Assembly: GCF_000950575.1 (NCBI RefSeq)
Contig: NZ_CP011005.1
Coordinates: 744,001-808,000 of the forward strand
Length of the DNA: 64,000 nt
Direction: 5' to 3'
Source of the DNA: Psychromicrobium lacuslunae
Lineage (GTDB): Bacteria; Actinomycetota; Actinomycetes; Actinomycetales; Micrococcaceae
Shown here: positions 12,735-21,366 of the stretch, in pieces
Layout: every line of letters starts with the position of its first letter
Numbering within the stretch: the stretch's first letter is position 1
Position numbers and translations under genes: made by a program
Notes under the pieces: generated by a model
Told to the model about the DNA's origin: nothing
The model's database searches: none
What the model saw: only the letters and a program-made list of their open reading frames with translations

Positions 12735-12869
12735 GGGCACCTCCCTTCGATAGTCGGGGCCATCTTGCCCCCATCGGCTCAATAATAGACCGAGATTTTT
12801 GGCACGCCAAGAGAAAGTAACTATCAGTTATTTAGCCATTGGTGAAATACTAAAAGTGCCAAAGGCACC

Positions 12870-12911
12870 CCGGACGAGGTGCGCCGTACCCGGCCAGCGA
12901 AAAGACGGCGC
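12870..12911 (+). ncRNA. Guanidine-III riboswitch (ykkC-III)
   Basis: The 42 bases match the guanidine-III (ykkC-III) aptamer almost position by position, as I remember it from the Thermobifida fusca structure: they open with CCGGACGAGGTGCGCCGTAC, continue with CCCGG and end with AAGACGGCGC. The CCGG/CCGG and GGCGC-type pairings needed for the pseudoknot are present. The exporter's GGAGG ribosome site begins within a few bases of the aptamer end (12915), so guanidinium binding probably frees it for translation. Confidence 0.93.
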
Positions 12912-12923
12912 GTGGAGGTCAAC

Positions 12924-13250
12924 ATGGCAACGTCTCTTGCCTGGATTGTTTTGGTATTCTCGGGAATTTTGGAAGCCGTTTGGGCTACCGCACTGGGTAA
13001 ATCTGAGGGTTTTTCTAAACTGTGGCCCAGCGTGGTGTTTGGCGTCGCGGTGGTGGCGAGTATGGTCGGCCTGGCCTGGGCGATGCGTACCTTGCCGGTT
13101 GGCACGGCCTACGCGGTCTGGGTGGGGATCGGTGCGGTACTCACCGTGGCTTATGCCATGGTGACCGGCACCGAATCCGTTTCCTTGATTAAGGTTCTCT
13201 TGCTGCTGGGCATTGTTGGCTGCGTCGTCGGGCTCAAATTACTGCACTAA
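12924..13250 (+). CDS. sugE: SMR-family guanidinium exporter (SugE/Gdx type)
   Basis: A 108-residue protein with four membrane helices, the normal SMR size. The essential Glu17 is in SGILEAVWATALG, and AWAMRTLPVGTAYAVWVGIG is the SugE signature helix region. SugE/Gdx members export guanidinium with protons as dual-topology dimers. The guanidine-III riboswitch directly upstream supports that substrate rather than quaternary ammonium drugs. I chose the ATG at 12924 because TGGAGG lies just upstream; the frame opens at 12879 inside the riboswitch and is not a start. Confidence 0.93.
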   Translation: MATSLAWIVLVFSGILEAVWATALGKSEGFSKLWPSVVFGVAVVASMVGLAWAMRTLPVGTAYAVWVGIGAVLTVAYAMVTGTESVSLIKVLLLLGIVGCVVGLKLLH

Positions 13251-13290
13251 CAGTTGCACTAACTGTTAAGATCTTTTCTTTCACCGCCGG

Positions 13291-13347
13291 CGAGTGTGCA
13301 GATTTACATTTTTTGAGACCCTCATGAGGTGTAGAACTGCACACTCG
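13291..13347. repeat. 57-bp palindromic element, copy A
   Basis: It begins CGAGTGTGCAG (13291-13301) and ends with the exact complement CTGCACACTCG (13337-13347). The interior holds a shorter imperfect hairpin (TGAG with CTCA). It lies between the exporter gene and the terminator of the tRNA cluster. It has the same 57-bp length and terminal CGAGT/ACTCG as two other elements in the window (14143 and 63757). Confidence 0.85.
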
Positions 13348-13396
13348 ATGGCCGAGGGGAGTACGTCATGAGGTTAGAGCGTGGTTAAAACTGAAT

Positions 13397-13424: not shown

Positions 13425-13499
13425 TGGTGGGCGATACTGGGATCGAACCAGTGACCTCTTCCGTGTCAGGGAAGCGCGCTACCGCTGCGCCAATCGCCC
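13425..13499 (-). tRNA. tRNA-Val (GAC)
   Basis: 75 bases with encoded CCA. The acceptor GGGCGAT pairs with ATCGCCC, the anticodon stem is CTTCC/GGAAG with loop CTGACAC (anticodon GAC), and the T loop is GGTTCGATCCC. It is the last gene of a three-tRNA cluster on the minus strand, and nearly identical to tRNA-Val(CAC) at 14026 except in the anticodon arm. Confidence 0.96.
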
Positions 13500-13518
13500 A
13501 AAAACTCTCAAAACTGAG

Positions 13519-13589
13519 AGGTGGGAACGGGATTCGAACCCGTGTACGCGGCTTTGCAGGCCGCTGCCTCGCCTCTCGGCCACCCCACC
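13519..13589 (-). tRNA. tRNA-Cys (GCA)
   Basis: 71 bases without encoded CCA. The acceptor GGTGGGG pairs with TCCCACC, the anticodon loop holds GCA (CCTGCAAAG), and the T arm is CGGGTTCGAATCCCG. It is the middle gene of the cluster. Confidence 0.96.
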
Positions 13590-13652
13590 GGGTTTCAAAG
13601 GTGCCCGCCTCATCAGCTATGACGAGCGGGCTACAGTTGACAGTTTCCTGCG

Positions 13653-13724
13653 AGCGGATGACGAGATTCGAACTCGCGACCCTCACCTTGGCAAGGTGAT
13701 GCTCTACCACTGAGCCACATCCGC
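13653..13724 (-). tRNA. tRNA-Gly (GCC)
   Basis: 72 bases without encoded CCA. The acceptor GCGGATG pairs with CATCCGC, and the anticodon stem TCACC/GGTGA carries loop TTGCCAA (anticodon GCC). It is the first gene of the cluster. The 301 bases upstream (13725-14025) hold no gene that I can support and must contain the promoters for this cluster and for the divergent tRNA-Val. Confidence 0.96.
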
Positions 13725-14025
13725 AGAAGGAACGGGTTTCCCCTTGAGTAGCTTACTTTGCTTCGACTGGATGGCCGATTCGGAGTAACTTTCCTCGTGT
13801 TCCTGCGAGTAAAAACTCTATCCGACGATCGGGGAAACGCAAAATCACCGTGTTTCTGCGGCGCGTTCCGGTGTTGTTGCTGCTGAGCTAATAACCGCCT
13901 CGCTCCGACTGGCCTAGAACCTTGTGCTGGTTTCGACTGCGCCTCATGCCTAGTCAGAACTGCCCGGAGTTAGTTCCGATTAGGCACCTTGGTGAACTTT
14001 CCGATAATATTTCTGAGCAGCACAC

Positions 14026-14100
14026 GGGCGATTGGCGCAGTGGTAGCGCGCTTCGTTCACACCGAAGAGGTCACTGGTTCGAACCCAGTATCGCCCACCA
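14026..14100 (+). tRNA. tRNA-Val (CAC)
   Basis: 75 bases with encoded CCA. The anticodon stem CTTCG/CGAAG carries loop TTCACAC (anticodon CAC). Acceptor, D and T arms match tRNA-Val(GAC) at 13425 nearly base for base, in inverted orientation. A TAATAT box lies a short distance upstream, at about 14004. Confidence 0.96.
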
Positions 14101-20409: not shown

Positions 20410-20558
20410 CAACGTGCTCCGGGGTCGGTGTAAGTCCGAACCGGCGGTTATAGTCCGCGACCCGCGCGTCCCGTGCAGAAAGTTTGCACAGGACAAACGG
20501 TTGAATCGGTGAAATTCCGATACCGACAGTTAAAGTCTGGATGGGAGAAGCACGTAGG
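20410..20558 (+). ncRNA. FMN riboswitch (RFN element)
   Basis: It has the conserved RFN blocks in order: GGGGTCGGTGTAAGTCCGAACCGGCGGT-like segments near 20423, a variable hairpin (CCCGTGCAGAAAGTTTGCACAGG), the ATCGGTGAAATTCCGATACCGACAG-type arm and the closing TGGGAGAAGCACGT. It lies about 90 bases upstream of ribM and controls the whole ribM-D-E-B-A-H run by binding FMN. The gap 20316-20649 holds only this element. Confidence 0.96.
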
Positions 20559-20649: not shown

Positions 20650-21366
20650 GTGACAGATATTCTGCGATGGCTCTTTGACGCCAAGATCGAATTCGCCGGT
20701 GGCGGATTCCTACTCTGGCGAGAAGTGCTTGGCAATCTCTTTGGTTTACTCAGTGCCCTCGGCGGAATGCGCCGCAAAGTCTGGGCCTGGCCGGTCGGTA
20801 TTATCGGCAATGCCCTGCTCTTCACGGTGTTTCTTGGCACCGTCTTCGGCGCTCCGAACCCGGTCAACCTGCTCGGCCAAGCTAGCCGACAGATTATGTT
20901 CATCGTGGTCTCCATATACGGCTGGTATCGCTGGCGACAAGCTCAAAAAGCCTCAGTAGATGGCGACCAAGCCGCCGTCGAACCTAACTGGGCGTCCTGG
21001 CCGGCCCGAATCGGCCTGCTGGTAGCACTCTTTGGCGGCACCGCGCTGCTAACCCCGCTTTTCAAGCTGCTCGGTTCTTATGAGCCGGTCTGGGCGGACG
21101 CCTGGATTTTCATGGGCTCACTGCTAGCAACCTATGGGATGGCTAAGGGCTGGGTCGAGTTCTGGCTGATCTGGGTCGCCGTCGACATTGTCGGGGTGCC
21201 GCTGCTGTTCAGCGCTGGCTACTATGCGAGCGCTTTGATGTACATCTTCTACGGCATCTTCACCCTGATCGGTTTCTTTGTCTGGTGGCGGGTGAAACGC
21301 CAAGCTGGACAGAAACTTTCGGTGGAAACCGGCTTTCCCGATCCGACGGTAACGGTGAAAAAGTGA
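20650..21366 (+). CDS. ribM: Riboflavin transporter RibM (PnuC family)
   Basis: A 238-residue membrane protein with about seven helices and the PnuC-type features GNLFGLLSALGG, WPVGIIGNALL and a late YASALMYIFYG. In actinobacteria PnuC-like proteins behind FMN riboswitches import riboflavin (RibM) rather than nicotinamide riboside; the riboswitch directly upstream supports that here. The GTG start at 20650 follows AAAGGGG. Its stop overlaps the ribD start. Confidence 0.9.
   Translation: MTDILRWLFDAKIEFAGGGFLLWREVLGNLFGLLSALGGMRRKVWAWPVGIIGNALLFTVFLGTVFGAPNPVNLLGQASRQIMFIVVSIYGWYRWRQAQKASVDGDQAAVEPNWASWPARIGLLVALFGGTALLTPLFKLLGSYEPVWADAWIFMGSLLATYGMAKGWVEFWLIWVAVDIVGVPLLFSAGYYASALMYIFYGIFTLIGFFVWWRVKRQAGQKLSVETGFPDPTVTVKK

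Follow-up and report, generated by a model that had tools for sequence, protein, structure and literature searches.

A guanidine-III riboswitch and its predicted guanidinium exporter gene in Psychromicrobium lacuslunae: relatives, start-region complementarity and a possible second target family

What does the small membrane pump encoded behind a structured leader in Psychromicrobium lacuslunae carry, and how might the leader control its synthesis? The locus lies in a stretch of 64,000 nucleotides (positions 744,001 to 808,000 of contig NZ_CP011005.1; hereafter the window), for which a first-pass annotation made from the letters alone had proposed a guanidine-III riboswitch in front of a SugE/Gdx exporter. 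We find good support for this pair: the riboswitch class and its usual gene were already known, and their occurrence here is newly recognised. Guanidinium can be named as the likely substrate of a gene that is probably annotated as a generic drug pump. The main interest of this report lies in a signal in the start region that may act as an expression platform, and in an association of guanidine-III aptamers with membrane proteins of the CBU_0592 family.

Against the Rfam model Guanidine-III (RF01763) the leader scored 67.0 bits (cut-off 36; E 1.2e-11), with model positions 1-67 of 67 covered and no non-standard pair flagged in the alignment. The first-pass annotation had offered a covariance-model search as the check on which its reading could fall, and the score clears the cut-off by a wide margin. 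The start it had given is the first base of the aptamer core, to which the Rfam model adds an upstream hairpin (Table 1). Our own model, R1, gave 67.6 bits on the window sequence, which is one of the 32 rows on which R1 was trained. The description of the aptamer as matching its class nearly base for base also held up, with core bases 1-24 identical to what we take to be the letters of the T. fusca crystal RNA. Departures from that RNA, with the same letters taken for it, lie in the joining strand and include C31 to A at 12901 and one inserted base. By hand mapping onto the numbering in the accessible text of PMC5696562, the window RNA keeps the traits of the class, namely the H-type pseudoknot and the guanidinium contacts in the conserved ACGA core and at G17. 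The P1/P2 pseudoknot layout and the ligand-contact bases are the same as in T. fusca guanidine-III (ykkC-III; PDB 5NWQ), and both RNAs lie near a ribosome-binding site. The ribosome site had been placed a few bases from the aptamer end, and it does begin 2 bases past the core, compared with 16 nt in T. fusca (PMC5696562, same portion); that paper also gives a guanidine Kd of 60 uM for the class. The leader as a whole folds no better than its shuffles (z -0.21). Elsewhere in the same genome, no second Guanidine-III match was found among the 150 of 651 candidates scored, and Guanidine-I and Guanidine-II had no match. Judged from sequence, the stretch is very probably an ordinary, well conserved guanidine-III ON riboswitch of a Gdx gene, for which we infer both the ligand and the ON direction. 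Guanidine is a toxic metabolite, and the pump encoded immediately behind its sensor would be expected to expel it.

Table 1. Features at the riboswitch-gdx locus (window positions)
Feature	Position	Strand	Basis
Guanidine-III riboswitch, upstream hairpin plus aptamer	12851..12914	+	RF01763 match, full model
Upstream hairpin GUGCC-AAA-GGCAC, part of the Rfam model	12856..12868	+	Rfam alignment, fold
Aptamer core	12870..12911	+	hand mapping onto crystal numbering (PMC5696562, accessible text)
P1 pseudoknot	12870-12873 with 12890-12893	+	hand mapping (PMC5696562 numbering, accessible text)
P2	12881-12887 with 12905-12911	+	hand mapping (PMC5696562, accessible text); covariation, 32 sequences
Ligand-contact bases C6, G7, G17	12875, 12876, 12886	+	hand mapping (PMC5696562, accessible text)
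Shine-Dalgarno GGAGG, 5 bases 5' of ATG, 2 bases past core	12914..12918	+	sequence
gdx, sugE-type SMR, predicted guanidinium exporter, 108 aa plus stop (ATG at 12924; stop codon ends 13250)	12924..13250	+	PF00893, SugE model, 6wk5
N-terminal codons; CGUCU at 12931-12935 (codons 3-4) complementary to aptamer 3'-strand AGACG	12927..12941	+	folds
Possible weak terminator from the stop codon, AACAGT/ACTGTT then T-rich	13249..13278	+	by eye

The protein belongs to PF00893 (Multi_Drug_Res; E 1.1e-20), and SugE was the best of 21 NCBIfam SMR models with 93.8 bits (runner-up 49.2), short of its equivalog cut-off of 126. We read this shortfall as a matter of model calibration and not as a lost Gdx trait; it matters for automatic naming. 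With Multi_Drug_Res as its Pfam name and every NCBIfam model short of its own cut-off, the gene may plausibly be called a multidrug pump by automatic annotation. The closest PDB entries were 6wk5 (E 2.9e-18) and 8vxu (1.1e-17), followed by EmrE (2.5e-9); 6wk5 shares the sequence of 6WK9, to which the available sections of PMC9574504 give the name Gdx-Clo. The SugE/Gdx features that had been claimed for the exporter can be located as E17, W20, S46, Y63, W66, G68 and G70, and comprise the SMR domain, the central Glu, the switch Tyr, the binding-site Trp and GxG, with equivalents of E13, W16, S42, Y59, W62 and GIG of Gdx-Clo (PDB 6WK5/6WK8/6WK9). Identity to Gdx-Clo is 38% in a three-sequence alignment, and the window protein has 4 more N-terminal residues; its relatives, too, usually start 4 residues further in. 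Like Gdx-Clo it is encoded by a single gene and its charges are balanced (Lys/Arg bias of 0 by hand count), as described for lone dual-topology SMR genes in PMC9574504 (same sections). With EmrE, of the Qac subtype, it shares the SMR family, the Glu, the Tyr, the second Trp and GxG, but it has Trp, not Ala or Gly, 3 residues past the Glu, and its scores against this subtype are lower. W16 is conserved in Gdx, with Gly or Ala at that position in Qac, according to the portion of PMC7695847 available. Since W20 stands at this position, 3 residues past the central Glu, and the genome's second SMR protein (L003), which scores highest with the EbrB, EbrA and Qac models, has Ala there, we place the gene on the Gdx side. 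Guanidinium is likely to be its natural substrate, and its transport is predicted from these sequence features. No guanidine carboxylase in the genome passed the TIGR02712 cut-off (1303.85 bits), the best match reaching 545.9 bits across positions 1-441 of 1201.

Two other readings concern the substrate and the ligand. In one, the gene encodes a multidrug SMR exporter of general scope, guanidine being just one inducer; we think this very unlikely, since the residue that separates the window protein from the genome's Qac-type protein is the Trp of Gdx, every NCBIfam model other than SugE stays at or below 49.2 bits, and no Guanidine-III match adjoins the Qac-type gene by the Rfam scan or our own model. 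What speaks for it is the Pfam name, together with the report, in the portion of PMC7695847 available, that the substrates of Gdx proteins include some hydrophobic guanidinyl compounds. The other reading, in which C31 to A and the inserted base of the joining strand make the aptamer a variant with changed ligand preference, is extremely improbable. GAAAAG in place of GACAAG is indeed rare, being found in only 2 of the 88 family loci parsed (L001, L033), but C31 to A also occurs in other relatives, and the same GAAAAG letters precede Gdx genes in Rhodococcus erythropolis (L121) and Tsukamurella ocularis (L139), which is why we doubt a changed ligand. Moreover, the contacts C6, G7 and G17 are unchanged, and in the crystal C31 forms part of the joining-strand base stack, the ligand contacts being those three bases (PMC5696562, accessible text).

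The guanidine-III riboswitch of a Gdx gene is common among relatives. A Guanidine-III match was present in 172 of 295 genomes of the family, 166 of them over the cut-off; within the genus, six of seven genomes had an aptamer match and the same six matched the Gdx protein, the seventh (G026) having neither. We examined 90 loci found through the aptamer, the window included, made up of the 30 best-scoring and 60 chosen by hand across genera and multi-copy genomes, and thus not a random sample. A Gdx-like gene adjoins the aptamer in 89 of them, in one case broken by a frameshift (L034). A second sample started from the protein and took the best 80 of at least 554 confirmed loci, from named genomes; RF01763 lies just 5' of the gene in 77 of these best 80 (20/20, 20/20, 19/20 and 18/20). 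The other three (L142, L156, L167) have no aptamer at the Rfam cut-off, nor one adjoining the gene by R1. The two samples overlap at a few places, for example L094 and L026. Our own sequence patterns missed two of the 90 (L044, L046) and four of the 77 (L103, L109, L116, L126), all of which match Rfam.

Across 32 sequences P2 shows both-sided changes at five of its seven pairs (25 such cells vs 4.2 in shuffles), and its pairing is lost when the partners are slid by 1-3 columns; its outer two pairs are broken in 12 and 4 of the 32. The pseudoknot is invariant across those same 32 sequences, and among 49 distinct cores its first pair becomes G-C in two and is broken in one. Tandem gdx pairs occur in 16 of the 90 loci (L038, L040, L042, L051, L054, L056, L057, L069-L071, L076-L079, L091 and L092), and by eye all 16 carry the CAGU/ACUG form of P2, the single-gdx loci having been compared in part. 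The frameshifted gdx of L034 belongs to a genome of the same genus (G129), where the riboswitch in front still matches.

How the aptamer acts on the pump gene can be set out as a proposal. Guanidinium would be held by G7 and G17 of the H-type pseudoknot. Without ligand, the aptamer 3' strand CGAAAAGACGGCGC may base-pair with the adjoining downstream segment that contains the ribosome site and the start, and once the folded aptamer takes up this strand the start region would be left free; the ligand-bound aptamer may protect the mRNA against RNase E as well. As ligand would free the start region, the pump would be made as guanidine accumulates. Guanidine is described in excerpts of PMC12186494 as promoting the pseudoknot, freeing the Shine-Dalgarno (SD) sequence and halting RNase E scanning, and exposure of the ribosome site is called probable in the accessible text of PMC5696562. 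For the OFF state, we lean towards pairing of the aptamer strand with the start region.

This proposal was compared with folds of the leaders, all computed with pseudoknot, triplex and ligand left out. Identical leaders and those without a recognised SD or with N were dropped, as were those with a long spacer except in the comparison of the SD with and without the aptamer; this left 78 leaders for that comparison, 74 for SD hiding and 74 for strand pairing, and 65 outside Micrococcaceae after 6 loci judged to be Micrococcaceae were set aside. Enforcing the aptamer lowered mean SD openness from 0.571 to 0.441, with a rise in 16 and a fall in 45 of the 78 leaders (0.79 free to 0.57 enforced in the window). 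Nor is the SD unusually hidden in the free state, native leaders being less open than shuffles of their upstream part in 23 of 74. Sequestration of the SD as the OFF state is thus unsupported by folds with and without the aptamer.

The aptamer 3' strand, on the other hand, shows stronger pairing with the downstream region than with shuffles of that region (0.580 vs 0.298; 67 of 74 leaders), also outside Micrococcaceae (0.519 vs 0.347; 52 of 65). In 29 of 74 and 16 of 65 leaders, respectively, no more than one of the leader's own 20 shuffles did as well. The word GUC, complementary to GAC of the aptamer, stands between SD and start in 33 of 74 leaders (8.2 expected), in 32 of 63 outside Micrococcaceae (8.0 expected) and in 19 of 226 other ORFs, a control picked mechanically and not made up of verified genes. 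Counting distinct leaders, the GUC usually sits right against the start codon (27 of 32 and 23 of 29). Another word, CGT, reaches 15 of 63 outside Micrococcaceae, and the spacer GUC could serve some other purpose. As the sequences are related, the pairing and GUC counts are not independent and are inflated. Over all leaders, the unpaired fraction of the start codon rises slightly, from 0.45 to 0.52, with the aptamer (up in 38, down in 19 of 74).

The window leader has no separate GUC in its spacer. Its start codon is unpaired at 0.11 in the free state vs 0.47 with the aptamer enforced, and the wider initiation region is unchanged (0.54 to 0.53). In the fold, CGUCU within codons 3-4 and AGACG of the aptamer 3' strand would close a hairpin with the SD in its loop and the AUG in its stem; when the 12 extra bases were removed in silico, P2 became the predicted fold of the leader. 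Against shuffles of the codons this alternative pairing lacks significance: 21 of 300 pair at least as much, and 44 of 300 do so for the start codon. The CGUCU-AGACG OFF hairpin of the window is suggestive only. Across the class, start regions recurrently complement the aptamer strand, which provides a testable OFF state.

A different account of the last step alone is that mRNA lifetime is the main target, with the ligand-bound pseudoknot blocking RNase E scanning and translation not being switched directly. Protection from RNase E is reported for the class (excerpts of PMC12186494, citing Richards and Belasco 2021), and the failure of the SD-release model in simple folding fits such an account; we nevertheless consider it rather unlikely, given that two findings fit a translational platform: the start region complements the aptamer strand beyond the level of shuffles, and a GUC precedes the start codon. 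The position of the SD just past P2 is also conserved, and in 79 of 87 leaders the start codon lies 12-19 bases past a 5-bp P2. Pairing of the aptamer strand with the start region remains the OFF state that we favour.

One of the 90 aptamer-led loci, L064 (151-484), has no Gdx-like gene; its aptamer precedes an 84-aa protein of the CBU_0592 family (NCBIfam 39.2 bits, cut-off 25), and its genome has no match to the Gdx query. When the class was searched with this protein, 32 of 394 genomes had a relative, and 30 loci were examined; because the query is itself aptamer-bearing, the sample favours aptamer-bearing loci. Rfam places an aptamer beside eight of the 30, and our own model, which was trained on Gdx loci only, together with a sequence pattern adds L208 and L211, so that with L064 the count is 11 of 31. 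Of four plasmid matches three were read: an aptamer is present on Streptomyces nigrescens plasmid SNP1 (L244), and none adjoins the gene at the Rhodococcus plasmid loci L242 and L243. In all 12 aptamer-bearing loci (L064, L203, L205-L211, L213, L220 and L244) the Glu lies in GFLLLEG, the next residue is V, T or A, and a Trp comes after that. Among loci with this Glu form, 11 of 17 have the aptamer (L064 and 10 of the 30 from the class search); against a strict link, Glu-form L204, L212 and L214-L217 and the Rhodococcus loci L242 and L243 are without one. Loci with Asn instead (L218, L219, L221-L224, L227, L230) have no aptamer in any of the eight readable cases, and since they retain the Trp, Glu is the residue that differs. 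In six further loci whose residue the script could not read (L225, L226, L228, L229, L231, L232), Rfam finds no aptamer. The gene of aptamer-bearing L220 has an in-frame stop; in both L214 and L220, which come from different families, an in-frame TGA stands just 5' of GFLLLE, where most relatives have Trp, and the residues that follow are conserved.

Gdx is present in 80% of Actinobacteria (PMC9574504, available sections). In the 11 aptamer-bearing CBU_0592 genomes, no SMR match exceeds 35% identity with the window Gdx: G028, G409, G517, G415 and G379 have no Gdx match, and in G505, G434, G590, G309, G380 and G454 the matches are merely 31-35% identical. The six Glu-form genomes without aptamer are similar, with no Gdx match in five and one at 32% in G362. 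Three Asn-form genomes were searched, of which G305 and G328 have a 64-65% identical Gdx that is preceded by an aptamer (L233, L234), and G659, 63% complete, has no Gdx match. The one resemblance between Gdx and the Glu-form proteins is a local E-x-x-W stretch, which reads LEAVWA in the window protein and mostly LEGVWA in CBU_0592. Homology between CBU_0592 proteins and SMR was considered and rejected (profile comparison probability 1.6 over 6 columns); a PDB search gave no relative of the CBU_0592 protein at E up to 1, and the name CBU_0592 was not found in the open-licence papers searched. These patterns could mean that actinobacterial guanidine-III riboswitches control two unrelated but interchangeable small membrane proteins, Gdx and the Glu form of CBU_0592 (~80 aa), the latter as a second family that came to guanidinium transport by convergence, an idea to which we attach no more belief than disbelief. 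If true, it would provide a function for an uncharacterised membrane-protein family and a case of convergent guanidinium handling.

Downstream of gdx, the possible weak terminator seen by eye (Table 1) was not reported by a terminator scan. A palindrome-like intergenic element follows at 13283-13352; it has 66 matches in the genome, of which about half are separate places because most places match on both strands. It lies beside a tRNA cluster at 13425-14100 with genes for Val, Cys and Gly on the minus strand and Val on the plus strand, and in L031, L055, L094 and L119, too, gdx is followed by tRNA genes. Further along the window, an FMN riboswitch (20410-20557; 97.9 bits) precedes a gene for a PnuC-like membrane protein (20650-21366) and rib genes, the gene names having been assigned by eye.
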